Of a stretch of DNA of 39,361 nt, positions 10,663 to 34,020 are shown in pieces. The position numbers and the translations under genes were made by a program. Under the pieces are notes generated by a model. It searched no databases. It saw only the letters and a list, made by a program, of their open reading frames with translations, and had not been told where the DNA came from. Within the stretch, counting starts at the first letter, position 1, and every line of letters begins with the position of its first letter. This stretch comes from Planctomycetota bacterium (lineage in GTDB: Bacteria; Planctomycetota; Phycisphaerae; Sedimentisphaerales; Anaerobacaceae), in NCBI GenBank assembly GCA_025459125.1, contig JALORE010000034.1:1-39361 (forward strand). The letters run 5' to 3'.

Positions 10663-12468
10663 ATGGGCACGAAGAGGACGTTCATCATCGCGACACTGGT
10701 GCTCGCCGGCACGGCGGGCCTGACTCTGGGGGACGTGGTCACCGGGCTGTTGGGCCATTGGCCTCTGGATGGGGATGCCACAGACCTTTCGGGCAACGGT
10801 CATGAGGGTACCCTGATGGGCGACGCCCACTTCAGCACCGACGGGGTGTTCGCCGGGGCGCTTGCCCTGGATGGCGACGGCGACTTCGTCGAGATGCGCG
10901 GGTACCAGGGCCCCATGAAAAGCCCCTGGACTCTCGCCTGTTGGGTCCAGACCACCGGCGCCGGCGATATGGACATCCTGAGCTGGGGCACCGAGGGCGG
11001 CGGCCTGAAGGTCGAGTTTCGCTTCAACGCCGGCCGGCTGCGCATCGAGCACGGCAACGGCAATATCCGCGGCAACACCGTCATCAACGATGGGGAATGG
11101 CACCATGGTGTAGCCCAACTGCCGGCGGGGGGCGTTATCAAGGATGTCCTCTTCTACCTGGATGGCAAGCCCTTGGCCCTTTTTGCAACGATCGGCAACG
11201 GCAACAACCCCTTCAACACTACGCCGGGGATCGACTTCAACATCGGGCGCAGCGGCCCCCTGTCCGGCCGGTATTTCCAAGGCCAGATCGACGACGTGCG
11301 TGTCTACGACCGGCTCCTGAGCGCGGAGGAGATCGGGCAACTGGTCGTCCGGCCCCAGGCCCATGCGCCCAAGCCGGCCAACGGCGCGGTGGGTGTCGAG
11401 GTGCCGCTGCTGCAATGGACCGCCGGCGACGGCGCGGCGCTCCACACGGTGTACCTGGGAACCAGCCCCGATCTGACGGAGGCCGACCGCGTCGCCGAGC
11501 GCCTGCCGGCGGCAGTCTATTACCATGCGCCCGGCCTGCAGCCGGGAACCACTTACTACTGGCGGGTGGACGAGATCGAAGCCGATTTGGCCACCGTTCA
11601 CACGGGCGCCGTCTGGAGCTTCGTGACGCAGGATATTAAAGCCTACGGCCCAAGTCCCGCGGAGGGCGACAATCGCGTCACGACCGCCCCCGTGCTGACG
11701 TGGCTGCCGGGTCGAGCCGCCCTGGAACACCACGTCTACTTCGGCGCTAGCCGGGAGGCCGTGGCCCAGGGTACCCCCGCTACGGACAAGGGCGTGATCA
11801 AAGAGACGTCCTTCACCCCGGGCGAGCTGCAAAGCGCCACCACCTACTACTGGCGCGTGGATGAAGTGGTCGCCGGCGGCGTGATCCAGATGGGGGCCGT
11901 CTGGAGTTTCACCACGATCCTCGCCATCGACGATTTCGAGAGCTACACCGACGACGAAGGCAACCGCATCTACGAAACCTGGATCGACGGCTGGACCAAC
12001 GGCACCGGCTCGACGGTCGGTTACACGGTGGCTCCCTTCGCCGAACAGAAGACCGTTCACGGTGGCAAACAGGCCCTGCCTCTGGACTACAACAACCTTC
12101 ACGCCCCCTACTACAGCGAAGCCGAGCGTCAGTTCGCCCCCACCCAGGACTGGACAATCAACGGCCTGGATACGTTGGTCGTCTATCTCCGCGGTCGGGC
12201 GACGAACGGACCCGCGCGGGTGTATCTGATCGTAAAGGACACGTCCAACCGCACTGCCACCGTGAGCCACCCCGACTCGGCCGTGGTCACGGTCGGGAAA
12301 TGGGTCGAGTGGCAGATCGCCCTGGGCGATCTGACCGGCGTGAACGCGGCGCGGATCAAGCAGATCGTCCTCGGCATCGGCGATAAAACGGCATCCGCGC
12401 CGGGCGCCGCGGGATTGATTCTTGTGGATGATTTCTACGTCTTTCGGGCCGCCCCCGCCCAGAACTGA
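10663..12468 (+). CDS. Secreted modular protein: LamG - Fn3-like x2 - DDFESY C-module
   Basis: A 601-residue protein with a signal peptide (about residues 1-24). ATG 10663 is chosen because GGAGAA lies 8 bases upstream; the longer reading from 10588 puts non-signal sequence in front. A LamG/concanavalin-like domain spans about 28-225 (LLGHWPLDGDATDLSGN, IDDVRVYDRLLSAEEI). Two Fn3-like modules follow, each with YYWRVDE and VWSF landmarks (WRVDE near 300 and 397). A C-terminal module (about 418-601) starts DDFESYTDDEGNRIYETW, carries a GGKQ..P.DYNN segment and ends with a beta-sandwich-like LTGVNAARIKQIVLGIG. In this gene the C-module is uninterrupted. It probably binds glycans outside the cytoplasm. 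It is the first of three similar genes spaced 81 and 91 bases apart, probably one transcript. Confidence 0.75.
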   Translation: MGTKRTFIIATLVLAGTAGLTLGDVVTGLLGHWPLDGDATDLSGNGHEGTLMGDAHFSTDGVFAGALALDGDGDFVEMRGYQGPMKSPWTLACWVQTTGAGDMDILSWGTEGGGLKVEFRFNAGRLRIEHGNGNIRGNTVINDGEWHHGVAQLPAGGVIKDVLFYLDGKPLALFATIGNGNNPFNTTPGIDFNIGRSGPLSGRYFQGQIDDVRVYDRLLSAEEIGQLVVRPQAHAPKPANGAVGVEVPLLQWTAGDGAALHTVYLGTSPDLTEADRVAERLPAAVYYHAPGLQPGTTYYWRVDEIEADLATVHTGAVWSFVTQDIKAYGPSPAEGDNRVTTAPVLTWLPGRAALEHHVYFGASREAVAQGTPATDKGVIKETSFTPGELQSATTYYWRVDEVVAGGVIQMGAVWSFTTILAIDDFESYTDDEGNRIYETWIDGWTNGTGSTVGYTVAPFAEQKTVHGGKQALPLDYNNLHAPYYSEAERQFAPTQDWTINGLDTLVVYLRGRATNGPARVYLIVKDTSNRTATVSHPDSAVVTVGKWVEWQIALGDLTGVNAARIKQIVLGIGDKTASAPGAAGLILVDDFYVFRAAPAQN

Positions 12469-12549
12469 GCGGCGGGCCGCGGGAGTCCCGGAGGGCGTGT
12501 GCACTTGTGAGGCCGAAGTCTGCGGCATTCTATTGAAGGAGGACAACGC

Positions 12550-15500
12550 ATGTGTAGGAGAATGGCTTTCATCGTGGCCGTTGTGCTGGTGCTGAGCATG
12601 GCTTTCCCCGCCCCGGCGGGCCAACTGGGGTATTGGGCTTTCGATGACGGCACCGGGACAACCGCCCGGGACAGTTCCGCCAACAAGAACGACGGGCGGC
12701 TGGTGGGCGGGCCCGTCTGGGTGGACGGCAAGTTCGGCAAGGCCCTCCAATTCGATGGCGTGGACGATTTCGTGGAAGTGCCGCACAACGCCAAGCTGAT
12801 CCCCACCACCGGGAAGGCCACGGTGTCCGTGTGGATCAACGCCAAACGCCACACCGGTCCCGGGGGCGGTACATGGCAAGGCATCCTGGCGAAAGGCGGA
12901 GCGCCGCGCCTTTATAACCTGTACACGCACGCCAATCGGGTCCTCCACTTCAGCACCGGAGTGAGCGGCGCGTACGTGGGGAGTCTGAGCACGGGCGAAG
13001 TCCCTCTGAACGAGTGGGTCCATGTCGCGGTCGTCGTCGATGGCCGGCATCTGTACTACCTCAACGGGGAGCCGGCCGGCGTTGCCGGGGAAGGAGCGAC
13101 TGTTCCCTCCGGCGGGACCGCCAACCTGACGATCGGGCTGACCACGAGCGGCGAGGCCAACTACTTCCTGGGCCTGATCGACGAGGCGCGAGTGTACGAC
13201 CTCGCCCTCACCGAGGTTCAGATCAAGGGGCTCACCAACGGCATCGCGCCCACCTGGCCCAAGGCGAGGAATCCCAACCCGGCCAACGGAACCGTCGGGG
13301 TCATGACGCCGTTGTTCCAGTGGGAACCCGGCGACGGCGCCCTGTTCCACGATGTCTACTTCGGCACCACGCCGGAGTTGACCGAGGCGAACCGCGTCGC
13401 CACGCGGCTGCCGATGGCCATGTACTGGCACGTGCCCGGCCTGGAGTCGGGCGTGAAGTACTACTGGCGCGTGGACGAAGTGGCGGCGGACCTGACGGTA
13501 ACTACCGGCGACGTTTGGAGTTTCACCGCAGCGCCGCTCAAGGCTCACACGCCCAGTCCCGCCGATGGGGCTCGGAACGTACCCCTCGATGCCAAGCTTG
13601 CCTGGTCGATAGGAAGCGGCGCGATTTCGCACGACGTGTACTTCGGCACCAGCCGTGACGACGTGGCCGCCGGCACCGGCGGGACGGCCAAGGGCAACCG
13701 GCCCGGCACGACCTTCGATCCCGGCGCGCTGGCCGGAGACACCACGTACTTCTGGCGCATCGACGAGACCCAGGCCGGCGGCAACAAGGTCACAGGTGAC
13801 ATCTGGAGCTTCCGGACACTGCCCAACCTGCCGATTTCCGACCCGAACCTCGTGGGCTGGTGGAAGCTGGACGAGGAGGCCGGAACCTTCGTGCTGGATT
13901 CCTCCGGTTACGCGAACCACGGCACCTTGCGGAGCAGTCCGCAGTGGGTCCCCGGCCATGACGGCGGCGCCCTGCAGTTGGACGGCGTGGATGACTACGC
14001 CGAAATCCCGCACCATGCCACCCTGACCGTGACCACGGAAGTGGCGGTGATGGCCTGGATCAATCCGCGGAGCCTGGTCGCGCAGTATCAGGGCGTTGTC
14101 GCCAAGGGCAATACCATCCGCTCCTACAGTCTGTACCTGCAAAGCAACGGTACGTTCCACTTCAGCACGACGTCGGCCGGCGCTTATGTGGGCTCCTCGA
14201 GCACCGGTACGGTGAAAGCCAACGAGTGGTCACATATCTGTGCCATGGTCGAGGGAGGCTCGCATTACTACTTCATCAACGGCGAGCCCGCCGGCACCGG
14301 TGGCAGCGGCATCAACCTGCCCGGCGCCTCCGACACGTGGACCGTGCGCATCGGCAATACCCAGGAAGGCGGACGTTGCTTCAGCGGAACCATCGACGAT
14401 GCCCGCGTGTACAAGGCCGCCCTGACCCTGGCAGAACTCAAGGAGGCCATGCAGGGCGATCCCTCCCGGGCCCGGGATCCGCAGCCGCCCCACCAGGCGG
14501 TCGTGGACATTGTCCATGCCGAGGCCCTGGGCTGGACGGCCGGCAAGACAGCCGCCAAGCACGATGTCTACTTCGGCGCGGACAAAGCCGCGGTCGAGAC
14601 GGCGGACACGACATCCCCCGTCTACAAGGGCCGGCAGACGGAGACCAGCTTCGCCCTGGCGGGCCTGGTCCAATTTGGCGGCGGCGTCTACTTCTGGCGG
14701 ATCGATGAGGTCGAAGCGGACGGCGTGACCGTCCACAAGGGCGCGGTCTGGACGTTCACCGTTCCCGCCGCTCTGATCGTCGACGACATGGAGAGCTACA
14801 CCGACGACGAAGGCAATCGCATCTATGAAATTTGGACTGACGGCTGGACCAACAAGACCGGCTCGATCGTGGGCAATCTCGTCGCACCCTTCGCGGAACG
14901 CACCATCGTCCATGGCGGCAAGCAGTCGATGCCCATGGACTACAACAACACCAAGACCCCGTTCTACAGCGAAGCCGAGTTGGCGTTCGCGCCGGTGCAG
15001 AACTGGACCAACCACGGCGTCACGGACCTGAGCCTGTGGTTCCGCGGCAACCCTCTGCGTTTCGTGGATAAGGGCGATGGCGCGTTCACGGTCGGCGCTT
15101 CCGGCCACGACATCTGGGACAATGCCGACGACTTCCGCCTGGTCTACAAGCGGCTGGCCGGCAACGGCTCGATCACGGTCAAGGTCGAAAGCCTGGTCAA
15201 TACCAACGCCTGGGCCAAGGCCGGCGTCATGATCCGCGAGAACCTCACGGCCGGTTCGATGATGGCCTACATGATCGTCAGTTGGAGCAGCGGCGTCTCG
15301 TTCGGCTGGCGGCAGGTCGCCGATGGAGCGTGCGGCAGCGCCACGCAGGCGAACGTCGCCGCACCGCAGTGGGTGAAGCTGACCCGCACGGGCAACGCTT
15401 TCACCGCCCAATACTCCGCCGACGGCAAGACCTGGATCGACATCAAGGACGCCGCCGGCAAGGCCGTCTCGACGACGATCCTGATGGGCGCCAACGTCTA

Positions 15501-15879
15501 CATCGGTCTGTGCACGACCAGCCACAACGCGGCCGCCACGACCACCGCCCAGTACAGCGGTGCCGCGACCACGGGCGGTGTCACCGGCGCCTGGCAGGAA
15601 ACCTGGATCGGCGACGATCCGGATCGCGCCAACGGCACGGCCGGTCTGTACGTGGCGGTCGAGGACAGTGCCGGCAAGGTGGCGGTGGCGACTCATCCCG
15701 ATCCGGCGGCCGTGAACGTAACCGCCTGGACCGAGTGGAAGGTCCCACTGAGCAGCCTGACCGGCGTGAACCTGACCCGAATCAAAACGCTGTATGTCGG
15801 CGTGGGCGACCGGAAGAATCCAGTCCCGGACGGCTCGGGCCGCATCTACATCGACGATATCCGGCTGACCAAACCGTGA
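12550..15879 (+). CDS. Secreted modular protein: LamG - Fn3-like x2 - LamG - Fn3-like - split C-module
   Basis: A 1109-residue protein with AGGAGG before ATG 12550 and a signal peptide. Modules in order are LamG (about 27-225), Fn3-like (WRVDE near 306), Fn3-like (WRIDE near 402), second LamG (about 430-630, NLVGWWKLDEEAG to IDDARVYK), third Fn3-like (WRIDE near 717), then the DDMESYTDDEGN C-module. The C-module is split: after LWFRGN (near 835) a 180-residue concanavalin-like domain of DUF1349 type is inserted (GHDIWDNADDF, WAKAGVMIREN, WVKLTRTGN). The C-module then resumes at GTAGLYVAVEDSAGK and ends IYIDDIRLTKP. No anchor or sorting tail is seen. A carbohydrate-binding or adhesion role is inferred from the domains. 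Confidence 0.75.
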   Translation: MCRRMAFIVAVVLVLSMAFPAPAGQLGYWAFDDGTGTTARDSSANKNDGRLVGGPVWVDGKFGKALQFDGVDDFVEVPHNAKLIPTTGKATVSVWINAKRHTGPGGGTWQGILAKGGAPRLYNLYTHANRVLHFSTGVSGAYVGSLSTGEVPLNEWVHVAVVVDGRHLYYLNGEPAGVAGEGATVPSGGTANLTIGLTTSGEANYFLGLIDEARVYDLALTEVQIKGLTNGIAPTWPKARNPNPANGTVGVMTPLFQWEPGDGALFHDVYFGTTPELTEANRVATRLPMAMYWHVPGLESGVKYYWRVDEVAADLTVTTGDVWSFTAAPLKAHTPSPADGARNVPLDAKLAWSIGSGAISHDVYFGTSRDDVAAGTGGTAKGNRPGTTFDPGALAGDTTYFWRIDETQAGGNKVTGDIWSFRTLPNLPISDPNLVGWWKLDEEAGTFVLDSSGYANHGTLRSSPQWVPGHDGGALQLDGVDDYAEIPHHATLTVTTEVAVMAWINPRSLVAQYQGVVAKGNTIRSYSLYLQSNGTFHFSTTSAGAYVGSSSTGTVKANEWSHICAMVEGGSHYYFINGEPAGTGGSGINLPGASDTWTVRIGNTQEGGRCFSGTIDDARVYKAALTLAELKEAMQGDPSRARDPQPPHQAVVDIVHAEALGWTAGKTAAKHDVYFGADKAAVETADTTSPVYKGRQTETSFALAGLVQFGGGVYFWRIDEVEADGVTVHKGAVWTFTVPAALIVDDMESYTDDEGNRIYEIWTDGWTNKTGSIVGNLVAPFAERTIVHGGKQSMPMDYNNTKTPFYSEAELAFAPVQNWTNHGVTDLSLWFRGNPLRFVDKGDGAFTVGASGHDIWDNADDFRLVYKRLAGNGSITVKVESLVNTNAWAKAGVMIRENLTAGSMMAYMIVSWSSGVSFGWRQVADGACGSATQANVAAPQWVKLTRTGNAFTAQYSADGKTWIDIKDAAGKAVSTTILMGANVYIGLCTTSHNAAATTTAQYSGAATTGGVTGAWQETWIGDDPDRANGTAGLYVAVEDSAGKVAVATHPDPAAVNVTAWTEWKVPLSSLTGVNLTRIKTLYVGVGDRKNPVPDGSGRIYIDDIRLTKP

Positions 15880-15970: not shown

Positions 15971-18900
15971 ATGAAATGGTGGAATGGTGTGTTGGTACCG
16001 ATCGTGGTGCTGGCCCTGATGCAGGGCAACGCGGCCTATGGGGCTTTTGATCCGCTCCAGGACCCCGCGTTGATCGGGTGGTGGAAGTGCGATGAGGGCC
16101 AGGGCAACGTCGTTGCCGACGCCTCGGCGGCTCATCACGACGGGACGTTCGTGGATGGCAACCCCGCGTGGGTCCCCGGCGCCGTGGGCAATGCGATCGA
16201 CTTGATCGATCCCACGCTGGTCGAAGTGCCTCCCATGGGACTGACGCTGACGGAGGCCACGATAATCGGCTGGGTCCTGCCCCACGGCCCCCAGGTGCGG
16301 TGGGCCTCCATCATCATGCACCGCGGCCCCGGCCCGGCCCACGGGTTCAACCTGACGGAAACGCGGCAACTGGCCTACCACTGGAATGGCCTGGCCACCA
16401 CGTATAACTTCCGCGGCAATGCGTACTATGTCAACGATGAATGGACGCACTGCGCGTTGACGATCGAGCCCACCAAGGCGACGTTCTACGTCAATGGCGT
16501 GGAGGCCGCCGTCAATGCCATCGCGCACACCGCGGCGACCTGGGACGGTCGGGTGTGGTTCGGCGGCGACCGCACCTACACCGGCACGCGCCACATCAAA
16601 GGCGCCCTGGACGAGATCCTGTTCTTCCGGCGGGCCCTGACGGCGGCGGAGATCAAATCCCTGGTCCCGCCCAAGCTCAAGGCGACCAAGCCCAGCCCGG
16701 CCGACGGCGCCACCAATATCACGATGCCGCTGCTGCAATGGACGGCCGGCGAGATGGCGGTCTTCCACAACGTCTATCTCGGCACGACCCCGCAGTTGAC
16801 GGAAGCCCATCTCGTGGGCAAGAGCCAGCCGTTCGCCATGCTGTACTACCTGCAGGGCTTTGCCCCGGGCACCACCTACTACTGGCGGGTGGATGAGATC
16901 ACCGCGGCCGGCGTCGTCACGACCGGCGATGTCTGGCGCTTCACGACCGCCGCAGTCACGGCCACGCAGCCGGTGCCGCCGGATGGCGCCGCGTATGTCA
17001 CGACCAGCGCGACCCTGTCGTGGACCGCGGGGCAGAACGCCGTGATGCACGATGTCTACGTCGGCGCCAATCGCGCCGACGTCGAGAGCGGCGCGGCCGG
17101 CGCGTTCAAGGGCAAACAGGCCACCACCAGTCTGCAACTGGATGGACTGGCCCGTGGCACGACGTATTACTGGCGGGTGGACGAGGTGGCGGTGAACGGC
17201 AGCAAGGTCGCGGGCCCGGTTTGGAGCTTCACGACGCGACCGGTCATCGCCAAGCCCGATCCGGACTTCGTCGGCTGGTGGAAACTGGAGAATGAAGGCT
17301 CCGGCGCCGCCATCGACTACTCCGGCAACGACCGCGATGGCATCCTGATGGGCGGTCCGCAGTGGGTGGACGGGTACCTGGGCGGCGCCCTCAAGGTCGA
17401 CGGCGTCGATGATTACGTCGAAACCAACTATGCCCAGGATCTGGCGAAGTGGACGGTCTGCACCTGGGTGATGAGCCCGGCGGCACCGGCCGCCACCGCG
17501 GCGACCGGTCCGGTCCATCGCGAGAAGAATTTCCAGATCAACTGGAACCACGGTACCGCCGCGGACCGCGGCGCCGCCGGTCTGCGCGTTGGCGGAACCT
17601 GGTCGTTCGCCAGTTTCGGAACCCTGTCCGCAAACACCTGGTATCACCTGGCCGCGAGCTTCGATGGCACAACGCTCAAGGCGTACACCAACGGGGTGTT
17701 GATCACCACGACGCCGGTGTCGGGCGTACCCGATGCCGAAGTCGGCACGCTGAAGTTCGGACGCCATTCAACCACCGCGACAAATTTCTTCGCCGGCACG
17801 ATCGACGATGTCCGGGTTTACGGGCGGGCCCTGACCGACGAGGAGATCAAGAAGGCGATGCAGGGCGACCCGCTCCTGGCCTCGAATCCGCAACCCGCGC
17901 ACGGCGTCAGCGTCGATATCCAGAACGTGGCCGACCTGGCCTGGACGGCGGGCGAAGGAGCGGCCCAGCACGATGTCTATTTCGGCAAGGACCTGGCGGC
18001 GGTGAAAGCGGCCAGCCCGACTTCGCCCGAATACAAAGGCCGGCAGGCCGGCACGAGTTTCTCCCTGGCCGGACTGGTCGAGATCGGCGGCGGCTCCTAC
18101 TTCTGGCGGATCGATGAAGTTGCGGCCGACGGCACCATCCATAAGGGCAGTGTCTGGACGTTTACGATTCCCGGCTACCTGATCGTGGATGAGTTCGAGA
18201 GCTATACCGATGATGAGGGCAACCGCATCTACGAGACCTGGGAGGACGGCTGGGTCAACGGGACCGGCTCGGTGGTCGGCAACCTCCAGGCCCCCTTTGC
18301 CGAGCGGACGGTCATCCACGGCGGCAAGCAGGCCATGCCCATGGACTACAACAACGCCAAGACGCCCTTCTACAGCGAAGCGTCCCAGACCTTCGCGCCG
18401 GTGCGGAACTGGACCGACTATGGCGTGACCGACCTGAGCCTCTGGTTCCGCGGTAACCCGGTCCGCTTCGTGGACAAGGGCAACGGCGCCTTTACCGTCG
18501 GCGCTTCCGGCCATGACATCTGGGACAACGCCGACGACTTCCGCTTCGTCTGGAAGCGGTTGGCCGGCGATGGCTCGATCGTGGTCAAGGTCGAGAGCAT
18601 CGGGAACACCAACGGCTGGGCCAAGGCCGGCGTGATGATCCGCGAAAACCTGACCGCCGGCTCGACCATGGCGTACATGATCCAGAGCGTCGCCAGCGGC
18701 GTCTCGTTCGGTTGGCGGCAGATCGCCGACGGCACCTGCGGCAGCTCTACCCAGGCAGGCATTATGGCACCGCAGTGGGTGAAGCTGACCCGCAAGGGCA
18801 ATGCCTTCACCGCGCAGTACTCCGCCGACGACAAGACCTGGACCGACGTCAAGGACGCCACCAGCGGCCAACCCGTCTCCACCACGATCCTGATGGGAGC

Positions 18901-19369: not shown

Positions 19370-19409
19370 CCGAGGCCCGCGTCCCCGTGACGCGGGCCTC
19401 GGCCTTTTT
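19370..19409 (+). terminator. Intrinsic terminator after the three-gene LamG cluster
   Basis: CCGAGGCCCGCGTC (19370-19383) pairs perfectly with GACGCGGGCCTCGG (19389-19402) over a 5-base loop, followed by CCTTTTTC. Confidence 0.85.
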
Positions 19410-25655: not shown

Positions 25656-25685
25656 TTGGCACGGGGGCCCCGTCCGTGCTATACT
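25656..25685 (+). promoter_or_regulatory. Promoter upstream of the 25809 gene
   Basis: TTGGCA (25656-25661), 18 bases, then TATACT (25680-25685). The paralogue at 28453 has TTGGCA, 18 bases, TACACT at the equivalent place, which supports both. From 25500 to 25808 nothing else is seen. Confidence 0.55.
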
Positions 25686-25808
25686 CTATATACCTGTAAG
25701 TAGGCCTGTGACTTTTCATTCCGCAGAAACATAGGGCGTAATGGTCCTCGGTCACACGGTGTGTGGCGAGGGCAGGGTTATTTCATGCATCTGGGAAGGA
25801 GGATTGTC

Positions 25809-28148
25809 ATGTGTAGAAGACTCGTTTTGTGGTGTTGCTGCGCGATGGTCCTGGGCTGGGTCGGCTCGCAGGCGTTTGGCGCGACGCTCGACCTGCAGAT
25901 CAAGGACGGCCTGGACGATGCCGAGGAACATCTGGCCGACGGCAGCATGGACATCGACAGCACCGACCTGGAGTTCCCCTATGAGGATAACGGTACTCCT
26001 TCCGCGACCGACCCGCAGTTGAACATTTTCCGGTTCAACGTCGCGTTGCCCAAGGGTGCGGTCGTCACCAAGGCATACCTGGAGGTCGAGCAGGACGAGA
26101 CCAAGGGCAATGACAAGCCGGTCAACGTCATCATCGAAGGCCAGCTCACGCCCGATGCCCCGGCCGTCAAGAACGTGGCCAAGAACCTTTCCGGCCGCGC
26201 GCCCTGGACCGTGGCGAAGGTGAAATGGACGGTTCCCATGGGCGGCAAGAACAATGACAAGTTCCAGAGCCCCGACCTGTCGGCGATTCTCACCGAGATT
26301 CTCGCCCAGGACGGTTGGGCCAGTGGCAACGCCCTGCTGTTGGCGATCCGTGATGATCCCGACAGCCCGTCGACGGGTCTGCGCTGCGTCGAATCGGTCG
26401 AAGGCGAAGCCACCGCTGCGCCGAAGCTGCATATCGAGGCGGTCGTCGCCAAGGCCACGAACCCCGACCCGAAGAACGGTGCCGTGGATGTGACCTCGGC
26501 ACTGCTGGTGTGGACGGCCGGTGACAATGCGGTGGCCCACAACGTCTACTTCGGCACTACGGCTACGCTCGGGGCGGCCGAGTTGGTTTCCCCCGGCATG
26601 CCGGCGCCCATGTATTACCACGTGGCGGGCCTGACGCCGGGCGCGACCTACTACTGGCGGGTCGATGAGATCGCCGTGGATGGCACGATCACGCCGGGCG
26701 ATGTCTGGAGCTTCAGCGTGATGCCCGTGGCCGCGTCCTCGCCGTCGCCGGCCGACGGCGCTGTCTGGCAAAGAAGTGACACGACGATCAGTTGGAAGGC
26801 GGGCGCCGGGGCGGTTTCGCACAAGGTGTACGGCGGCAACGATAAGGCCGCGGTGACGGCCGGCGATGCCGGCACGCTCCTGGCCACCCAGGCGGAAACT
26901 TCCTTCGTAGTAGGCAAGCTGGCTCCCCTCACGGTCTTCTACTGGAAGGTCGATGAGGTCGATGCCGCGGGTGCGGTGGTTCCGGGCCCGGTCTGGACCA
27001 TCAACGTGGCCGGGATGAACACCGGAAGCTGGAAGACCGCCGCGGCGGCCGCTACCCCCGGCTTCCTCGCCACCTATGTCAAGAACGGCACCTATGACAT
27101 CGGGACCTTCGGCGGCGAAATGACCTATGAATTCGTCGTGCGCAGCAATCCGGATGAGAAGATGACCAGTATGGCCCTGATCGGCCGGATGGACTTCGGC
27201 GACACCAAGATGGGGCTCAAGTACGAGCAGTGGAACAACACCAAGCACTACGGTGCCACCGCCTTCGGCGTGAAGGATTATGATTACGGCGTCGCCAACG
27301 CCCCGGGCGAGTATACGCATCTGATCTTTGTGGCCAGCACCGCCGGCAAGAAGACCGATCTCTACGTCAATGGCGTTCTCAAAGGCAGTGTCCCGGTCGC
27401 GGTCATCCTGTCGGGCCAGGTCGGCATCGGCCGCGCCATCCGGCAGAACGGCACGTTCGTCGACGACTTCGACGGCAAGATCTTGGGCGTGGCGATCTAT
27501 GACCGCATCCTGACCGACGCCGAGATCACGGCGAACTCGACCGCCTTCCTCCAGGGCGGACCGGAAGCAGTCAGTCTCACCCTCGTGATCGGCAACGGCG
27601 CCGACGATGCCGAAGAGCACCTCGCCGCCAATATGGACGTCGGCAGCAGCGACCTGGAAATACCCTATGAAGACGCCGGGACGCCCAGTTCCACGGACGA
27701 GCAGCTCACGTGCCTGCGGTACCTCGTCCCGCTGGCCAAGGGTGCCCAGATCACGAAGGCTTCCGTGGAGTTCACCTGCGATGAGACCAAAGACGGTTCC
27801 AAGCCGGTGAACCTCATTATCGAAGGCCAACTGGCGCTCAACCCGCCGGCCTTCACCACCGATGCCAAGAATCTGACCGGTCGTGCCCCGTGGACCAAAG
27901 CTCAGGTCCCGTGGGCCGTGGAGAATTGGACGGCGGTTGGCCAGAAGTCCACGACCGCGGACATCGCCGCCATCATCCAGGAATTGGTCAACCAGGACGG
28001 CTGGGCCAGCGGCAACGCCATGGTGTTGGCGTTCCGCGACGACAAGGCCAACCCCTCGACCGGCCAGCGCTGCGCTGACGCTTACGAGGATGGGCCGGCC
28101 CTGGCGCCCGTACTCCACATCGAGGCCCTCCTGCCTTGGGCTCCGTAA
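25809..28148 (+). CDS. Secreted modular protein: DDAEEHL - Fn3-like x2 - LamG - DDAEEHL
   Basis: A 779-residue protein. ATG 25809 follows AGGAGG, and the leader plus first codons are identical to those of the 28453 gene; starting at 25761 would spoil the signal peptide. After the signal (1-24) comes a domain of about 185 residues (DDAEEHLADGSMDIDSTDLE, KGAVVTKAYLEVEQDETKG, ILAQDGWASGNALLLAIRD, LHIEAVV). I know this beta-sandwich-like domain from exported proteins but cannot name it. Two Fn3-like modules (WRVDE near 283, WKVDE near 379) and a LamG-like domain (about 400-590) follow. A second copy of the first domain forms the C-terminus (DDAEEHLAANMDVGSSDLE to LHIEALL). Having one domain at both ends is unusual. 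The function is unknown, probably extracellular binding. Confidence 0.72.
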   Translation: MCRRLVLWCCCAMVLGWVGSQAFGATLDLQIKDGLDDAEEHLADGSMDIDSTDLEFPYEDNGTPSATDPQLNIFRFNVALPKGAVVTKAYLEVEQDETKGNDKPVNVIIEGQLTPDAPAVKNVAKNLSGRAPWTVAKVKWTVPMGGKNNDKFQSPDLSAILTEILAQDGWASGNALLLAIRDDPDSPSTGLRCVESVEGEATAAPKLHIEAVVAKATNPDPKNGAVDVTSALLVWTAGDNAVAHNVYFGTTATLGAAELVSPGMPAPMYYHVAGLTPGATYYWRVDEIAVDGTITPGDVWSFSVMPVAASSPSPADGAVWQRSDTTISWKAGAGAVSHKVYGGNDKAAVTAGDAGTLLATQAETSFVVGKLAPLTVFYWKVDEVDAAGAVVPGPVWTINVAGMNTGSWKTAAAAATPGFLATYVKNGTYDIGTFGGEMTYEFVVRSNPDEKMTSMALIGRMDFGDTKMGLKYEQWNNTKHYGATAFGVKDYDYGVANAPGEYTHLIFVASTAGKKTDLYVNGVLKGSVPVAVILSGQVGIGRAIRQNGTFVDDFDGKILGVAIYDRILTDAEITANSTAFLQGGPEAVSLTLVIGNGADDAEEHLAANMDVGSSDLEIPYEDAGTPSSTDEQLTCLRYLVPLAKGAQITKASVEFTCDETKDGSKPVNLIIEGQLALNPPAFTTDAKNLTGRAPWTKAQVPWAVENWTAVGQKSTTADIAAIIQELVNQDGWASGNAMVLAFRDDKANPSTGQRCADAYEDGPALAPVLHIEALLPWAP

Positions 28149-28313: not shown

Positions 28314-28343
28314 TTGGCATTCATGCTCCTTGTATGTTACACT
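28314..28343 (+). promoter_or_regulatory. Promoter upstream of the 28453 gene
   Basis: TTGGCA (28314-28319), 18 bases, then TACACT (28338-28343), matching the arrangement before the 25809 paralogue. Confidence 0.55.
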
Positions 28344-28452: not shown

Positions 28453-31400
28453 ATGTGTAGAAGACTCGTTTTGTGGTGTTGCCTCGCGGCGACGCTGGGC
28501 TTCGTCGGCTCCCAGGCGTTCGGTGCGACGCTCGACCTGCGGATTACCAACGGTGCGAACGATGCCGAGGAACATCTGGCCGACGGCAGTATGGACGTCA
28601 CCAGCACCGACCTGGAGTTCCCCTACGAGGATAATGGGAACCCCTCCGCGACCGATCTGCAGTTGAATGTCCTGCGGTTCAATGTCGCGCTGCCCAAGGG
28701 CGCGGTGGTCACCAAGGCGTACCTGGAACTCGAGCAGGACGAGACCAAGGGCAACGACAAGCCGGTTAACGTCATCATCGACGGCCAGCTCACGCTCAAC
28801 GCACCGGCGATCACCAGCGCAGCCCGGAACCTTTCGAGCCGGACTCCCTGGACGGCGGCAAATGTGAAGTGGACCGTTCCCACGGGCATGAAGAATGACC
28901 AGAAGTTCCAGAGCCCTGACATTACGGCCATCCTCACGGAGATCATCAACCAGGACGGCTGGGTAAGCGGTAACGCCCTGCTCTTAGCCATCCGGGACGA
29001 CCCCGAGAACCCATCGAAGGGTCTGCGCTGCGTGGAGTCGGTCGAAGGCGAAGCCACCGCCGCCCCGCTGCTGCACATCGAAGCGGTCGTGGCCAAAGCC
29101 ACGAACCCGGACCCGAAGAATGGTGCGACCGAAGTGACCTCGCCGCTGTTCCAGTGGACGGCCGGCGACACCGCCGTCACGCACAAGATCTACATGGGCA
29201 CCAGCCCGACGATCACCGAAGCGGATCTGGTTTCCCCCGGCATGCCGGCGCCGATGTATTTCCACGTCGCGGGCCTGACGCCGGGCGCGACCTACTATTG
29301 GCGCGTCGATGAAGTCGCCCTCGATGGCACCGTCACGGTGGGCGATGTCTGGAGCTTCAGCGTGATGCCCCTGACCGCCCACTTCCCGACCCCGGCCGAT
29401 GGGGCCACCAATATCGCGACCGCGGGCCAGTTGAAGTGGTCCGCCGGGCAGGACGCGATCGCGCACATGGTCTACCTGAGCAGCGATAAGGCCGCTGTCA
29501 CCTCCGGCGCCGTCAGCGTTCAAGTGGCCGCGGGCACCGATCTGACCTACAACTTCACCGGCCTGCAGCCGTTCACCACCTATTACTGGCGCGTGGACGA
29601 GGTCACCAGCATGGGCCAGACCGTGGCCGGCCCGGTTTGGAGCTTCAGCACCGTCAGCTACCTGTCCCTGGCAGACGCCGCGGTCACGCTGAACTACAAC
29701 AACAGCGCTGCGCCGTTCTTCACGGAGACGGTGCTGACGGGCGCCACGGACTGGACCGCGTACGGGCTCTCGGATCTGATCGTGCAGTTCACGGGTCGCG
29801 CCGGCCCCTCCGGCGGCCTGACCTATGACGCGTCGAATCAGACCTACACCCTGACCGGCTCCGGCACGGATATCTGGAACAACAGCGATCAATTCCACTA
29901 TGCGTATAAGACCCTCAGCGGCGACGGCACGATGGTCGCCCGGGTCACCACCATCGGAGCCGGCGCCAACACGTGGGCCAAGGGCGGTGTCATGATCCGC
30001 CAGAGCCTCGCGGCCGGCTCGACCCATGCCTACATGCCTCTCACCGCCAACAGCGATGGGACGGCCGGCAACGGCGCCAGCTTCCAGCGGCGGCTCGCGG
30101 CCGACGGAGCCTCGTCGAACAGCGATTCCGGCGTGAAGATCGTGCCCCCGTACTGGGTGAAGATCGAGCGCAAGGGCGCGGACTTCTCCGGCTTCGTTTC
30201 CCCGGACGGCCAGACGTGGACCCAGATCGGCACGGCACAGACGATTGCCATGGCGGACCCGGTCCTGATCGGCCTGGCGGTGACCTCGCATGATGCGGCC
30301 ACGCAGCGGACCTTCACGTTCGACGGCGTCGCCACCACGGGCAACGTCGCGCCGGACGGCCCCTTCTCGGCCTGGGACGACATCGGCCTGGCCAGCAACG
30401 ATCCGCAGCCGATCTTTGCGGCGGTGGAGGATGCGGCGGGCAAACAGGCCGTCGTCGCCTTCGGCGATCCGGCCGCCACGCAGATTGCCCAACCCTGGAC
30501 CTGGAAGATCCCGCTCAGCGCCTTCGCCGGCGTGGACCTCAAGACCGTCGCCAAGCTGCATCTCGGCGTGGGTGATCTCCTGAACCCGGTCGCGGGCGGC
30601 AGCGGCGTCGTGACGTTCAACAGCGTCCGCGTGGTCCGGCCGGTCGTTCTGGCCAAAGGCGCCGATGTGACTGCTCCGGACGACAACGTCCTGGGTGTTC
30701 CCAACAACAAGAACTGGCCGGCGGCGGAGCCCCCCTGGCTGGCGATCGACGACAAGACCGGCACCAAGTTCCTGCACTTCAACGGCAAGACGGAGCCCGT
30801 CGGGTTCCAGGTGCAGGTCCTGGCCGGGCCGACCATCGTCACCGGGCTGAGCCTTACGACCGCCAACGACGCGGTCGAGCGCGACCCGGTTGCCTTCGAG
30901 CTGTCCGGCTCGAACGACGGCTTTGCGGGCCCCTGGACGCTGATCGCCAAGGGCGACATCGCGGACTTCGCCGGCGCGACGGCCTGGGAGCGCTTCACGA
31001 AGAATACGACGCCGATCACGTTCCCGAACAAGGTTGCGTACAAGTTCTACCAGGTGCTGTTCACCGCGGTCCGCGACCCGGCGGCGGCCAACAGCATGCA
31101 GATCGGCGAAGTCGAGCTGCTCAACGGCGGCCCGAACGTCATCTGGGTGTCCGATGCCTATGACGACAAGAAAGACGGCGTCCGCGATGACGAGGCCTGG
31201 GTGGGCTTCCTGGCCTCTCAGGGCTTCAATGTCGACTACCGGATGGGCGCGGCGCTCGGCAACGGGTACTGGCGCGTGCTGGACCAGGCCAAGATCGACG
31301 CGTTGAATGCCGCCGACCTGATCATCTTCAGCCGCAACCTCAACAGCGGCGACTACAACAACAGCAATGAGCGGAATCAGTGGAACGGCATCAAGGCCCC

Positions 31401-31833
31401 GCTGCTCTCGCTGGCCATGCACCAGCTCCGGAGCAGCCATTGGAAGTGGTTCAATACCACGACCATCAACGCGACGGTTCCGGTGATGAAACCGGTCGAC
31501 GTGGCGAATGCCGCGTTTACCGGGGTGACGCTCGACGCGAACGGTCAGATCCAGGCCCTCGCCGCCGGCATGAGTTCCTCGTTCCCGGGCGTTAAGGATG
31601 CCGGCAACGGCACCGTGATCGCCACCCGGGCCGACACCGGCGACGTGTGGATCGCCTCGTGGGCGGCAGGCACCGAGTTCTACGCGGGCTCGGGGCAGAT
31701 CCCCGCAGGGCCCCGCGTGTTCTTTGCCGGCGCCACCCAGGAGACGGTACCGACGATCGGCCGCGGTGAGCTCAACCTCACCGACAGCGGCCAGGCCGTG
31801 TTCCTCAATGTCGTGGACACGCTGCTGCCGTAA
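28453..31833 (+). CDS. Secreted modular protein: DDAEEHL - Fn3-like x2 - truncated split C-module - F5/8C-like - ThuA-like
   Basis: A 1126-residue protein with AGGAGG before ATG 28453 and a signal peptide. Residues 25-210 are the DDAEEHL domain, followed by two Fn3-like modules (WRVDE near 283 and 379, the same spacing as the 25809 gene). The C-module follows, but its DDFESY...HGG half is missing: it starts at LNYNNSAAPFFTET (near 411). It is split by the DUF1349-like domain (about 453-640, GTDIWNNSDQF, WAKGGVMIRQSL) and resumes at FAAVEDAAGK. Then come an F5/8C-like region (about 735-890, WLAIDDKTGTKFL to IGEVELLNG) and a ThuA/amidotransferase-like C-terminus (about 895-1126, VIWVSDAYDDKKDG, ADLIIFSRN). 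Probably exported; activity unknown. Confidence 0.72.
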   Translation: MCRRLVLWCCLAATLGFVGSQAFGATLDLRITNGANDAEEHLADGSMDVTSTDLEFPYEDNGNPSATDLQLNVLRFNVALPKGAVVTKAYLELEQDETKGNDKPVNVIIDGQLTLNAPAITSAARNLSSRTPWTAANVKWTVPTGMKNDQKFQSPDITAILTEIINQDGWVSGNALLLAIRDDPENPSKGLRCVESVEGEATAAPLLHIEAVVAKATNPDPKNGATEVTSPLFQWTAGDTAVTHKIYMGTSPTITEADLVSPGMPAPMYFHVAGLTPGATYYWRVDEVALDGTVTVGDVWSFSVMPLTAHFPTPADGATNIATAGQLKWSAGQDAIAHMVYLSSDKAAVTSGAVSVQVAAGTDLTYNFTGLQPFTTYYWRVDEVTSMGQTVAGPVWSFSTVSYLSLADAAVTLNYNNSAAPFFTETVLTGATDWTAYGLSDLIVQFTGRAGPSGGLTYDASNQTYTLTGSGTDIWNNSDQFHYAYKTLSGDGTMVARVTTIGAGANTWAKGGVMIRQSLAAGSTHAYMPLTANSDGTAGNGASFQRRLAADGASSNSDSGVKIVPPYWVKIERKGADFSGFVSPDGQTWTQIGTAQTIAMADPVLIGLAVTSHDAATQRTFTFDGVATTGNVAPDGPFSAWDDIGLASNDPQPIFAAVEDAAGKQAVVAFGDPAATQIAQPWTWKIPLSAFAGVDLKTVAKLHLGVGDLLNPVAGGSGVVTFNSVRVVRPVVLAKGADVTAPDDNVLGVPNNKNWPAAEPPWLAIDDKTGTKFLHFNGKTEPVGFQVQVLAGPTIVTGLSLTTANDAVERDPVAFELSGSNDGFAGPWTLIAKGDIADFAGATAWERFTKNTTPITFPNKVAYKFYQVLFTAVRDPAAANSMQIGEVELLNGGPNVIWVSDAYDDKKDGVRDDEAWVGFLASQGFNVDYRMGAALGNGYWRVLDQAKIDALNAADLIIFSRNLNSGDYNNSNERNQWNGIKAPLLSLAMHQLRSSHWKWFNTTTINATVPVMKPVDVANAAFTGVTLDANGQIQALAAGMSSSFPGVKDAGNGTVIATRADTGDVWIASWAAGTEFYAGSGQIPAGPRVFFAGATQETVPTIGRGELNLTDSGQAVFLNVVDTLLP

Positions 31834-31917: not shown

Positions 31918-31984
31918 AAGGCGGCATTTGCGTGTCATCATCACAAAAAGGTCTCCGTCCCAGACCTAAATAACGGATTCGGGG

Positions 31985-32014
31985 TAGGCGCAGGCCCGGC
32001 CGATGTGCTAAAGT
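31985..32014 (+). promoter_or_regulatory. Possible promoter upstream of the 32281 gene
   Basis: TAGGCG (31985-31990), 18 bases, then TAAAGT (32009-32014). It is weaker than, but laid out like, the promoters before the two paralogues. It would give a leader of about 260 bases. The rest of 31918-32280 shows nothing else but the ribosome site AGGAGG before 32281. Confidence 0.3.
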
Positions 32015-32280
32015 ATAGGCAGGCTCGTGTCAGCCGCCTATCGGACCTGTACCTTCTTACGCCGCACCCTGTGGCCGGTTGATGCCGCGGTCGTGCCAGA
32101 TCAACAACGGGAGGATGGAAGCGCCCACGTGGCTTGGGCCAAGCATTTCTCGACATGCACAGCGACTCGTCCGCGCCGCCATCTTCGGTTGACGCGCGCT
32201 GGTCACTGATGAGTAGAAGAAAGTGGATCGGCGCCGCGCCGGGACATGATTCATCACTGCATCATTGAAGGAGGACTTTC

Positions 32281-34020
32281 ATGGGTAAGAAGCTCGTTTC
32301 TCTGTTGTGTGTGGGACTGGGGCTGGTCGTGCTGACCGCACCGACGGCACAGTGTATGAACGTCGACGTCCGCATCGCCAGCGGCAATGACGATGCCGAA
32401 GAACACTTGGCCGCCGGCGACATGGATATCGGCAGCACGGACCTGGAGTTGCCCTATGAGGACGACGGCACTCCCAGTGCCACAGATGATCAACTGACGG
32501 GCCTGCGCTTCACGGTGCCGGTACCCAAGGGCGCCCAGATCCTCAAGGCGTACCTGGAATTCGAGATGGATGAGACCAAGGGCAACACCAAGCCTGTGAA
32601 CTTGGTCATTGAGGGACAGCTAACCGCAAACGCACGGGCGATCACCGCCGCCACCGGCGACCTCACCGGTCGGACCCCGTGGACTGATGCGCAGGTGAAG
32701 TGGACCGTCCCAACCGGGTTAGCGGTGGATGCGAAGTTCCGCAGCCCGGACATCTCCGCCATCATCAAAGAGATCATCAGCCAGAACGGCTGGGTCGCCG
32801 GCAATGCCCTTATGATTGCCGTCCGCGACGACAAGAGCGCTCCGTCCACGGGCCTGCGGTGCGTGGAAGCCTACGACGGTGAGCCGACGGCGGCGCCGTT
32901 GCTGCATCTCGAGGTCTTCAATCCCACGGCGCACACGCCGAACCCAGCCGATGGCACCCTGGGCGTCTTCATGCCCCTGTTCACGTGGATGGCCGGGGAC
33001 GGCGCGATGTTCCACAGCGTCTATCTGGGCAAGACGCCGGAGTTGACGGAGGCCGACTGCGTTGCGAAGAACCAGTATCCGACCATGTACTATCACGTGC
33101 TCGGTCTGGAACCCGGCGTCCAGTACTATTGGCGCGTGGATGAGACCGATGTCACCGGGAAGATCACGACCGGCCCCGTCTGGACCTTCGTCGCGCAGGC
33201 CGACACGGCTTACTATCCGACGCCCGCCAACGGCTCGACGGATGTCTCGCCGAGCGCGGCGCTGACCTGGCAGCCCGGCTTGGGCGTCATCAAGCATCAC
33301 GTGTACTTCGGGAACAGCCTTGACGCCGTCACACAGGGCGCCGCGGGCACCGACAAAGGCGAAACCCCGGATCCGACCTTCAAGCCGACGGCTCTCGAGC
33401 CGGTTACGACCTACTACTGGCGGGTGGACGAGATCGGGCTGGGCGGCGCCGTCAAGACCGGTCCCGTCTGGAGCTTCACCACCTACCTGCCGGTGGACGA
33501 CTTCGAAAGCTACACGGACAATGAAGGCGGCCGCATCTACGAGACGTGGATCGACGGCTGGACCAACAACACCGGCTCGACGGTAGGAAATACGACAGCC
33601 CCCTTCGCCGAGCAGACGATCGTCCGCAGCGGCAAGCAGTCCATGCCCATGGACTACAACAACGCGCGGACGCCCTTCTACAGCGAGGCCGAGCGAGAGT
33701 TCGCCGCCACGCAGAACTGGACGGTCGGGGGATTGGCCGACCTGAAGCTGGATTTCCGTGGCAGTTCCCGCAATGGCGCCGGGGCCTTGTACGTTGTCGT
33801 CGCGGACAGCAGCGGCAAGAGCGTCGTCGTTACTCACGCGGATACCGCCGCCGTCACCGCTCCCGTTTGGACCCCGTGGAAGATCCCGCTCAGCAGCCTT
33901 ACCGGCGTGAATCTGAGCCGGGTCAAGAAGATCTCCATCGGGGTGGGCAACCGGCAGAACCCCGCCGCGGGGGGAACCGGACGAATCTACATCGATGAGA
34001 TTCGGGTAACAAAGCCCTGA
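32281..34020 (+). CDS. Secreted modular protein: DDAEEHL - Fn3-like x2 - intact C-module
   Basis: A 579-residue protein with AGGAGG before ATG 32281 and a signal peptide (about 1-25). The DDAEEHL domain spans about 26-208 (GNDDAEEHLAAGDMDIGSTDLE, IISQNGWVAGNALMIAVRDD). Two Fn3-like modules have WRVDE near 284 and 380, the same spacing as in the 25809 and 28453 genes. The C-module (about 403-579) starts VDDFESYTDNEGGRIYETW, has GGLADLKLDFRG joined directly to SSRNGAGALYVVVADSSGK with no nested domain, and ends IYIDEIRVTKP. It combines the N-terminal type of its upstream neighbours with the C-terminal type of the 10663 gene, which suggests module recombination. Probably exported; ligand unknown. 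Confidence 0.75.
   Translation: MGKKLVSLLCVGLGLVVLTAPTAQCMNVDVRIASGNDDAEEHLAAGDMDIGSTDLELPYEDDGTPSATDDQLTGLRFTVPVPKGAQILKAYLEFEMDETKGNTKPVNLVIEGQLTANARAITAATGDLTGRTPWTDAQVKWTVPTGLAVDAKFRSPDISAIIKEIISQNGWVAGNALMIAVRDDKSAPSTGLRCVEAYDGEPTAAPLLHLEVFNPTAHTPNPADGTLGVFMPLFTWMAGDGAMFHSVYLGKTPELTEADCVAKNQYPTMYYHVLGLEPGVQYYWRVDETDVTGKITTGPVWTFVAQADTAYYPTPANGSTDVSPSAALTWQPGLGVIKHHVYFGNSLDAVTQGAAGTDKGETPDPTFKPTALEPVTTYYWRVDEIGLGGAVKTGPVWSFTTYLPVDDFESYTDNEGGRIYETWIDGWTNNTGSTVGNTTAPFAEQTIVRSGKQSMPMDYNNARTPFYSEAEREFAATQNWTVGGLADLKLDFRGSSRNGAGALYVVVADSSGKSVVVTHADTAAVTAPVWTPWKIPLSSLTGVNLSRVKKISIGVGNRQNPAAGGTGRIYIDEIRVTKP

Follow-up and report, generated by a model that had tools for sequence, protein, structure and literature searches.

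Probable exchange of heads and tails in a genome-wide family of putative glycan-binding proteins of a planctomycete

An array of seven modular genes lies in a 39,361-nucleotide stretch of planctomycete DNA, the whole of which is termed the window here. Rather than forming a special locus, the array is one outpost of a genome-wide family. We consider it probable that this family is secreted and glycan-binding, and that its heads and tails have been exchanged between paralogues at the B modules.

In the fetched parts of the same genome, 121 open frames carry B, C or E modules, with 225 B modules among them, and members are spread over 78 fetched stretches besides the window. These frames come from stretches in which 150 of 227 and 150 of 164 candidates were scored, so that family size is in places given as at least the stated number, and broken genes count twice. 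A scan of genome contigs with alignment A3 gave 318 matches, and the best 80 of these (76 loci) were used; M7 alone as the query found no relative. A preliminary description proposed that the locus itself creates diversity around a fixed B-B core. The window holds only 7 of the 121 frames and 15 of the 225 B modules, which argues against this role, and a fixed core is not supported either: 57 of the 121 frames have B-F-B and 34 have B-B.

The locus and its seven genes

Open-frame analysis confirmed M1 to M7 in the window, together with the following features:

10663..12468, plus strand: M1, secreted-type, L-B-B-C (B-B 11362-11919, C 11926-12441)
12550..15879, plus strand: M2, L-B-B-L-B-C(D) (B-B 13264-13824)
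14779-15054 and 15544-15876, plus strand: halves of C in M2, with D between them
15971..19285, plus strand: M3, L-B-B-L-B-C(D) (B-B 16685-17242, third B 17861-18166)
18185-18460 and 18953-19282, plus strand: halves of C in M3
19370..19402, plus strand: strong terminator-like hairpin after M3 (14 pairs, 12 G-C)
20244..25430, plus strand: M4, one open frame (F5/8C at 24936-25427)
25656..25685, plus strand: promoter-like site before M5 (ATG 25809), from a sequence scan
25809..28148, plus strand: M5, E-B-B-L-E (E 25887-26441, B-B 26454-27002, second E 27582-28133)
28314-28343, plus strand: promoter-like site before M6, similar to the one before M5
28453..31833, plus strand: M6, E-B-B-C'(D)-F-G (E 28531-29085, B-B 29098-29655)
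about 30652-31134 and 31135-31830, plus strand: F and G, respectively, of M6
32281..34020, plus strand: M7, E-B-B-C (E 32356-32925, B-B 32929-33483, C 33490-34017)
34074..34102, plus strand: strong terminator-like hairpin after M7 (12 pairs, 11 G-C)

A motif count in the window gives 15 B modules across the seven proteins, and this number, the number of proteins and the module orders all agree with the preliminary description. WRVDE motifs are likewise found at residues of about 283 and 379 in M5, M6 and M7, with the second motif of M5 reading WKVDE. The M5 frame opens at 25761, and its start, from which these residues are numbered, is more likely ATG 25809. The scanned stretch contains 13 terminator-like sites, compared with a mean of 10.8 in shuffles, and 6 promoter-like sites, compared with a mean of 2.4. 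Secretion of the family proteins is suggested by signal peptides, which were judged by eye. By Pfam, no catalytic domain scores above cut-off in M1 to M3 or M5 to M7, and no translocator domain is found in M1 to M7. PHROGs matches were obtained for M2 only. A pseudopilin-like gene lies directly upstream of the array.

Module identities

Pfam supports the LamG label in four proteins, with Laminin_G_3 (PF13385) scores of 67.9 (M1), 155.9 (M2), 143.5 (M3) and 47.2 bits (M5) and a cut-off of 27.6. The B module reaches at best 21.5 bits against fn3 (in M3; cut-off 25), and weakly matches related N-terminal domains such as Pur_ac_phosph_N. The F5/8C-like assignment of F holds for M4, which scores 46.1 bits against PF00754 (cut-off 28.2), and falls short for M6 (16.5 bits). 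The two F modules, from which the F profile was built, have no similarity by BLASTP; thus, the B-F-B calls rest on M4-type matches, Pfam-checked in the two members scanned (L032, 42.1 bits; L039, 45.5 bits). D scores 20.3-29.6 bits against DUF1349 (PF07081), below the cut-off of 32.4.

The C modules of M1 and M7 have no Pfam CBM match, and one C relative, L148, scores 26.1 bits against CBM30 (cut-off 27). Likewise, E has no Pfam CBM match up to E 10 in the library searched, which may lack a CBM96 model. Profiles of E, C and B-B-C found no convincing match among PDB sequences. The label of ThuA-like for the G module of M6 was not borne out: G has no PF06283 match up to E 10 and no similarity to a genuine ThuA gene (6474-7226, minus strand), although the two may share a fold.

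Elsewhere in the family, 58 regions lack an assigned module. A first scan took in 47 of them (37 leading, 5 middle and 5 tail) and a second one all 42 leading regions, so that coverage extended to 5 of the 9 middle and 5 of the 7 tail regions. Among the 42 leading regions, some of which are stubs of overlapping frames, Pfam assigns CBM_4_9 in five, LamG in three, PD40 in two, dockerin in two, and CBM9, PA14 and GLEYA in one each; most have no match. Among the 47 regions of all three kinds, CBM_4_9 is found in 7, PA14 in 6 and GLEYA in 4. One family member carries three fasciclin domains.

Predicted folds of the C and E modules

Fold prediction covered C and E, and the models of these modules from M7 have pLDDT values of 91.9 and 91.3, respectively. 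C is predicted to form a beta-sandwich (Foldseek E value 2.9e-7). A VIA fold comparison, made as a second look in which a family may be missing from the listing, relates the C model to CBM11 (Z 15.2, rmsd 2.3, 141 of 176 residues) and CBM30 (Z 12.9), at about 13-18% identity. The top Foldseek match of C is a virus turret protein, and the model also resembles the flagellar sheath protein FlaA1. The two best matches of E are a chondroitin-sulfate CBM (8wab; Z 14.0 over 162 residues, Foldseek E value 7.4e-7) and an alginate CBM96 (7vbo; Z 12.8 over 157 residues, Foldseek E value 7.1e-6), at 14-21% identity. The next 20 are TGF-beta, BMP and activin prodomains (Z 8.8-10.7). For CBM96, one report describes a basic groove with Lys/Arg residues and Tyr159 (PMC9971899).

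For both modules, therefore, the fold suggests glycan binding though no Pfam family reaches its cut-off, which lends support to the carbohydrate-binding role first guessed at. Proteins of the M1 to M3 and M5 to M7 types are best read as putative non-catalytic glycan-binding proteins on an Fn3-like stalk, with glycan binding predicted from the modeled folds. Whereas C shares its fold with CBM11 and CBM30, it is attached to no enzyme, and the E proteins lack a recognised enzyme domain despite the fold that E shares with CBM96 and the chondroitin-sulfate CBMs. Such proteins may act in polysaccharide capture or adherence.

Exchange of heads and tails

The sharpest evidence comes from M5, M6 and their orthologues in a sister species, G002. 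Left of residue 339, 70 of 75 informative sites group the sequences by genome, 4 by orthologue and 1 otherwise; right of it, all 93 sites group them by orthologue (0/93/0). The heads have therefore been exchanged between paralogues, with the break placed as follows (permutation p 0.0002):

26718..26729, plus strand: recombination break in M5 between head and tail, at the B1/B2 border, from informative sites

Protein identities follow the same division. M5 and M6 are 80% identical in the head and 29% in the rest, and their G002 counterparts, G002e3 and G002e4, 82% and 33%. Between orthologues, the values are 53% (head) and 71% (rest) for M5/G002e3 and 54% and 83% for M6/G002e4. The likeness of M5 and M6 extends over the signal peptide and 60 bp upstream, where they are 77% identical. 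Two other E-type quartets break less cleanly, at the E/B1 border. Quartets other than M5/M6 are less sharply divided in general (for example, 33/5 left and 6/38 right, or 38/2 left and 14/30 right), and one breaks inside E.

Trees of E and B2 from 12 E-headed proteins conflict strongly, so that the modules do not all follow one gene tree. In approximately unbiased (AU) tests of clades picked after the identities were known, every one of the four orthologue clades is rejected by the E data (p at most 0.00107), and every one of the five same-genome clades by the B2 data (p at most 4.4e-5), from an alignment of only about 99 columns. Stars were missing from three of the five same-genome groups on E and, on B2, from one of the four orthologue groups. 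C93 (L102), a weak match in C75 (L098), broken frames of G003 (in L142), a protein of G015 (L147) and E matches of other families were not part of these trees.

Similar signs are seen in the L-headed genes. One gene, G002b, is M2-like up to residue 372 (98 versus 27 sites) and M3-like beyond it (149 versus 49). M3 and M2 are 80-84% alike in C and D, compared with 31% in the first L. Although L1, B2 and L2 of M2 group with the same-locus genes of G005 and G006, its D rejects this grouping (p 4.6e-7); tests of the C module were mostly not significant in this comparison, from which a frame-broken gene (L031) was left out. Genome-wide, L-head identity is uncorrelated with identity of D (r -0.01, n 21) or of the last B (r -0.05, n 50), with weak controls for the B comparisons (split-half agreement 0.15-0.30). 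Against full independence stand head versus C1 (r 0.21), first versus last B (r 0.68) and C1 versus D (agreement 0.33).

These conflicting module trees and sharp breaks identify a mosaic, recombining paralogue family. Module swapping, as first proposed, thus holds: module borders recombine, and heads and tails have separate histories. That swapping here creates diversity is not supported. Although L heads are diverse, swapping of E heads has made those of neighbouring genes alike, which homogenises the heads of one genome and does not diversify them. This grouping of heads by genome is strong in two species (G000 and G002) and weaker in a third (G003).

Nothing indicates that the process is still running. 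Of 12 matches of at least 84% over 150 bp, 10 come from frames that overlap or adjoin on one piece of DNA. Distinct family genes are joined by only two: L043 and L087 match over the whole gene at 85%, and L052 and L105 share 185 bp. At nine overlapping-frame spots, no homopolymers of 6 or more and no short repeats were found, so about five broken-looking members seem to reflect decay or assembly errors. By reading, neither a recombinase gene nor a silent cassette was recognised in the window. With almost no near-identical tracts and no slippage repeats at these spots, there is no sign of a dedicated, ongoing or phase-variable exchange mechanism.

The locus in sister species

The locus is flanked by dprA and folC, and sister species hold different family sets between these genes, so other orders at this position, which the preliminary description suggested seeking, do exist. 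Seven folC contigs were fetched, dprA was reached in five, and all five have at least one family gene between:

G008: one LBBC
G002: LBBC, LBBLBC(D), LBBC
G005 and G006: one LBBLBC(D) each
G032: one L-B-F-B-C-L

The comparison was made without G003, which has no full folC match, and without G001 and G004, whose contigs end near folC. Gene order at both window ends agrees with G002. Orthologues of matching order are found in G002, G003 or both for M5 (where contig ends interrupt them), M6 (with L145 as the G002 orthologue of its tail), M7 and the C78 gene. Wide scatter of identical architectures, which had been named as evidence against the preliminary proposal, is thus partly present, within the genus, for M5, M6 and M7.

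Origin and function of the mosaic

At the head of a typical family protein would stand a lectin- or CBM-like module (LamG, E, CBM4/9 or others, with many heads unassigned). Its stalk would consist of Fn3-like B modules, arranged as B-B or, with a discoidin-like F in between, as B-F-B. The tail would frequently start with a CBM11-like C, which may hold an inserted DUF1349-like D. Tandem duplication would multiply the genes, and homologous recombination in or beside the conserved B modules, by gene conversion or unequal crossing-over, would then swap heads and tails between paralogues. Gene conversion may be the route. It is also conceivable, though rather unlikely, that gene conversion keeps the E heads alike for docking on the cell's own surface or matrix glycan and that the tails diverge for outside polymers. 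If so, the proteins would be interchangeable adaptors, assembled at the B-module joints, in which the plug is specific to the species and the grips vary.

It is possible, though doubtful, that the proteins are instead structural, forming an S-layer-like coat, a filament or a cell-cell matrix, with CBM-like folds serving protein-protein or self-glycan contacts and not the capture of nutrients. The lack of catalytic domains, the adjoining pseudopilin-like gene, the fasciclin-bearing member and the likeness of C to turret and sheath proteins and of E to growth-factor prodomains would all suit such a role. However, carbohydrate-binding modules make up most of the best matches of C and the two best of E, and several assigned heads and middles of other members belong to CBM or lectin families.

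Exchange between paralogues also has competitors. Birth-and-death evolution, in which lineage-specific rates or selection on E heads made same-genome heads alike, would explain why M5, M6, M7 and the C78 gene keep partly stable architectures and why recent tracts are almost absent. We find it unlikely, because the E data reject every orthologue clade, rates alone would hardly turn 70:4 informative sites into 0:93 across a single module border, and the likeness of M5 and M6 includes the signal peptide and upstream DNA. All genomes compared are fragmented assemblies, the G002 contigs have about 2x coverage, and exact words common to paralogues reach 42 nt, so a slight chance remains that assemblers produced chimeric contigs between paralogues in low-coverage metagenomes. 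Such an artefact is distinctly unlikely, since two genomes show the head pattern strongly and a third more weakly, the longest words shared by M5 and M6 and by G002e3 and G002e4 occur within the heads or ahead of them, away from the break, and both window ends agree with G002 in gene order. The combinatorial orders, the receptor-like kinase within the array and the single shared syntenic locus could instead recall a cassette-exchange locus, programmed or phase-variable, under the control of the M4 kinase. This is very improbable given the dispersal of members over so many stretches, the homogenised E heads, the lack of a recognised recombinase or silent cassette in the window and of slippage repeats at the nine spots, and the distribution of M4 described below.

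Exchange of heads and tails between paralogues, the reading we prefer, has relatives among known systems. Passenger subdomains of the Ag43 autotransporters of Escherichia coli, secreted adhesins that are often present in several copies per strain, are shuffled into classes (PMC10058404). Ag43 is an autotransporter with a translocator, whereas the family here, of about 120 frames, is built of CBM-, lectin-, Fn3- and discoidin-like modules that are separate domains. In Porphyromonas gingivalis, rearrangement of adhesin domains and allelic exchange in Kgp and other surface proteins give a mosaic discordant with strain phylogeny (PMC5266723). That exchange is between strains of one species; here the partners are paralogues of a single genome, and heads group by genome. 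For the same phylum, PMC8567305 cites Mahajan et al. 2020b for duplication and domain shuffling as important sources of innovation and for new domain combinations in general, unlike the single exchanges placed at module borders in one family here.

Gene gain and divergence are the usual explanation for lectin and CBM repertoires in bacteria. In this planctomycete genus, modules would be exchanged one by one among about 120 frames, and the breaks can be assigned to module joints. A few parts would then suffice for a bacterium to rebuild an extensive set of surface proteins, and the remodelling of such repertoires becomes a directly testable question. In the literature searched, we found no description of exchanges placed at module borders in one such family.

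The M4 kinase fusion

The preliminary description counted six secreted proteins, which stand, and a PD40 protein with a separate sensor kinase, which are in fact the same open frame, M4. This protein of 1728 amino acids consists of a Ser/Thr kinase, TPR, PD40, a hydrophobic segment, PD40, a dockerin that scores below the Pfam cut-off, B and F. The hydrophobic segment, at about 23571, is signal-peptide-like. No kinase match to M4 of at least 80 bits occurs at the locus in the five sister loci compared. A piece spanning the kinase/PD40 junction matches 48 genome places, many in the PD40 part only, and M4-type fusions of kinase and PD40 are found again in other genomes.

Composition of the modular array

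Seven open frames, M1 to M7, occupy positions 10663-34020 (+). They combine LamG (L), Fn3-like (B), CBM11-like (C), DUF1349-like (D, inserted in C), F5/8C-like (F), E and G modules. The frames, their module orders and the 15 B modules given in the preliminary description are borne out by frame reading and a motif count.

Module orders of the seven frames
M1: L-B-B-C
M2 and M3: L-B-B-L-B-C(D)
M4 (20244-25430): kinase...PD40-dockerin-B-F
M5: E-B-B-L-E
M6: E-B-B-C'(D)-F-G
M7: E-B-B-C

Pfam searches confirmed LamG in M1, M2, M3 and M5, and F5/8C, PD40 and protein kinase domains in M4. The dockerin (19.6; cut-off 22.9) and D, as DUF1349, fell below threshold, and no Pfam family scored above cut-off for B, C, E or G. 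No catalytic domain exceeded its cut-off in M1-M3 or M5-M7; the LamG stretches of M3 gave sub-threshold matches to 3keto-disac_hyd (16.9; cut-off 26.8) and a sialidase N-terminal domain (12.6; cut-off 26). Module position varies: G is a tail in M6, yet lies ahead of the B core in fetched stretches L072 and L057; E serves as both head and tail within M5; and L can occupy head, middle or tail position.

The kinase and the PD40 protein had been described as separate, but M4 is a single frame that holds both. It comprises a Ser/Thr kinase, TPR, two PD40 regions flanking a signal-peptide-like segment, dockerin, B and F (see also stretches L224 and L226). The same set of kinase, TPR and two PD40 parts is seen within single frames (1347-1834 aa) in sister genomes G002 (two frames), G003 and G008 and at other places in the own genome, so M4 looks like a genuine receptor-like fusion. 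Both G002 frames end in the same B-F tail as M4. Some genomes match the second half of M4 in separate short frames.

Heads follow the genome and tails the orthologue

The E-headed genes were compared among the own genome (G000), G002 and G003, the genes of the latter two being numbered e1 to e4. Module-wise identities show that heads go with the genome and tails with the orthologue. M6 and its G002 orthologue are 80-88% identical in C', D, Ct, F and G versus 53% in E, whereas M5 and M6 share 80% identity in E and 39% in B2, and G002e3 and G002e4 share 88% and 42%. A codon-level comparison is consistent with these values. Scans of informative sites located the breaks, each with a permutation p of 0.0002, the lowest value that 5000 shuffles can give; C78 is an own-genome match of the E query.

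Break positions (sites as same-genome/orthologue/other, left; right of break)
M5/M6 vs G002e3/e4: after M5-frame residue 339, the B1/B2 border (B1 247-342, B2 340-438); 70/4/1; 0/93/0
The same with G003e2 for G002e3: unchanged; 38/2/4; 0/87/0
M7/C78 vs G002e2/e1: after 225, at or near the E/B1 border; 33/5/2; 6/38/0
G003e4/e1 vs G002e2/e1: after 219, at or near the E/B1 border; 38/2/3; 14/30/3
M7/C78 vs the G003 pair: after 191, within E; 15/3/0; 6/34/3

AU tests, on clades chosen after the identities were known, rejected all four orthologue clades with E data (p 1.1e-4, 1.8e-5, 2.5e-6 and 1.1e-3) and all five same-genome clades with B2 data (largest p 4.4e-5). Support in the E tree was 100/99 for both M5+M6 and G002e3+e4; the other three same-genome groups were unstarred, as was the M7 orthologue clade in the B2 tree. 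The likeness of M5 and M6 extends over the signal peptide and ~60 bp upstream, where both carry a promoter-like site.

Fourfold-site identity of the heads (M5/M6 0.71; G002e3/e4 0.67) equals or exceeds that between G000 and G002 in folC (0.66), dprA (0.59) and rhaB (0.66), which suggests that these two exchanges are of about the age of the species split or younger. G003e1/e4 (0.61), G002e1/e2 (0.63) and M7/C78 (0.52) give no comparably clear sign of youth.

Swapping had been proposed as a maker of diversity. In the E cluster it is the reverse: exchange there is homogenising. The exchange seen here is specific to module borders and is apparently slow. Earlier papers already describe shuffling of bacterial adhesins (PMC10058404; PMC5266723) and domain shuffling in Planctomycetes (PMC8567305); the literature searched gave no account of heads being made alike at module joints within a CBM-like family this large.

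Exchange among L-headed genes

The first 372 residues of the G002 gene termed G002b resemble M2 (98 to 27 sites), the rest M3 (149 to 49). Its L1 is closest to own-genome gene C442 (support 90), and the pair falls within a clade (97) that takes in M2, G005 and G006; placing this L1 with M3 is rejected (p 0.0098). For L2 and for B2-L2-B3, G002b joins M3 at support 100. In L1 (support 93, unstarred) and B2-L2-B3 (99), M2 falls with G005 and G006. Because D rejects this grouping (p 4.6e-7), the D module of M2 was probably replaced. Tests of the C-module tree on L-type genes were mostly non-significant.

Genome-wide, L-head identity shows no relation to that of D or of the first or last B, and a weak one to that of C; identities of first and last B correlate at r 0.68.

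L head compared with other modules (r; nearest-neighbour agreement; split-half controls)
D: -0.01; 5% (n=21); 39% and 49%
Last B: -0.05; 4% (n=50); 45% and 15%
First B: 0.03; 12% (n=57); 44% and 16%
C: 0.21; 2% (n=48); 35% and 17%

Distribution of the family

Within the own genome (7.59 Mb, 527 contigs), the B-B query gave at least 152 matches (150 of 227 candidates scored) and the C query at least 148 (150 of 164). The E query gave seven: four in the window, C78 (71%), C93 (49%) and C75 (weak). Fetched stretches hold 121 frames that carry at least one of B, C and E, and the B modules number 225; seven frames are inside the window and the remainder on 78 other stretches. The 121 include pieces of broken genes, so the gene number in these stretches is somewhat lower, and genes beyond the scored candidates would raise the total. 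Family genes in L031, L038, L061, L073 and L074 appear broken into overlapping frames, with no slippage repeats seen there.

The mosaic family first described is real and its kind was guessed well, but neither a special single locus nor a fixed B-B core is borne out: the window locus is one of many, and B-F-B cores (57 of 121 frames) outnumber B-B cores (34). Heads on the latter are L (22), E (4), F (1), D (1) and six without assignment; tails include C, L-B-C(D), B-C, L, L-E and C(D)-F-G. The C query matched 44 of 61 genomes searched, with at least 51 places in each of the nine genus members, where scoring stopped near 57. One relative (L190) lies on a contig labelled Verrucomicrobia (RA.bin27), the sole such label among the best 76 loci.

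Seven folC contigs were fetched, of which five extend to dprA, the other gene flanking the array.

Contents of the dprA-folC interval
G008: one L-B-B-C
G002: L-B-B-C, L-B-B-L-B-C(D), L-B-B-C
G005 and G006: one L-B-B-L-B-C(D) each
G032 (another genus): L-B-F-B-C-L

None of the five loci compared has a counterpart of block M4-M7 between dprA and folC. Orthologues with E heads sit on other contigs (G002 L144, L145 and L146; G003 L142 and L143).

Predicted folds

Models of C (pLDDT 91.9) and E (91.3) were compared with known folds. The matches of C include CBM11 (Z 15.2; rmsd 2.3 over 141 residues), CBM30 and the N-terminal domains of agarases; a virus turret protein likewise ranks high. For E the two leading matches are a CBM that binds chondroitin sulfate (Z 14.0 over 162 residues) and alginate-binding CBM96 (Z 12.8 over 157 residues), with TGF-beta-family prodomains behind both (Z up to 10.7). 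A common fold proves no function, so C and E are putative glycan-binding modules.

Among 42 leading regions of other members that had no module assigned, Pfam gave matches to CBM_4_9 (5), LamG (3), PD40 (2), dockerin (2), and CBM9, PA14, GLEYA, 3keto-disac_hyd and TS_C (one each). A set of 47 such regions including middles and tails gave CBM_4_9 (7), PA14 (6), GLEYA (4) and fasciclin (1). Because PA14 numbers six in this set versus one among leading regions, it seems to lie mostly in middles or tails. One member (L059:4538-6049) has three fasciclin domains as its tail.

Neighborhood of the array

Features flanking the array
1181-3232: GH127-type beta-L-arabinofuranosidase adjoining the locus; 77-80% matches in G002, G006 and G008
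6474-7226 (-): true ThuA-family gene
9546-10457: pseudopilin-like gene (N_methyl; DUF1559 below cut-off), directly upstream of the array
8815-8834 and 38156-38175 (+): REP-like palindromic repeat, exact copies
7415-7434, 8903-8922, 9047-9066 and 38201-38220 (-): the same repeat, one mismatch

The pseudopilin-like gene is in the same place in G002 and G008, with no match there in G005 and G006. The repeat has 129 genome copies at one mismatch or fewer (reversed control, 0), and several listed copies form inverted pairs ~50 bp apart.
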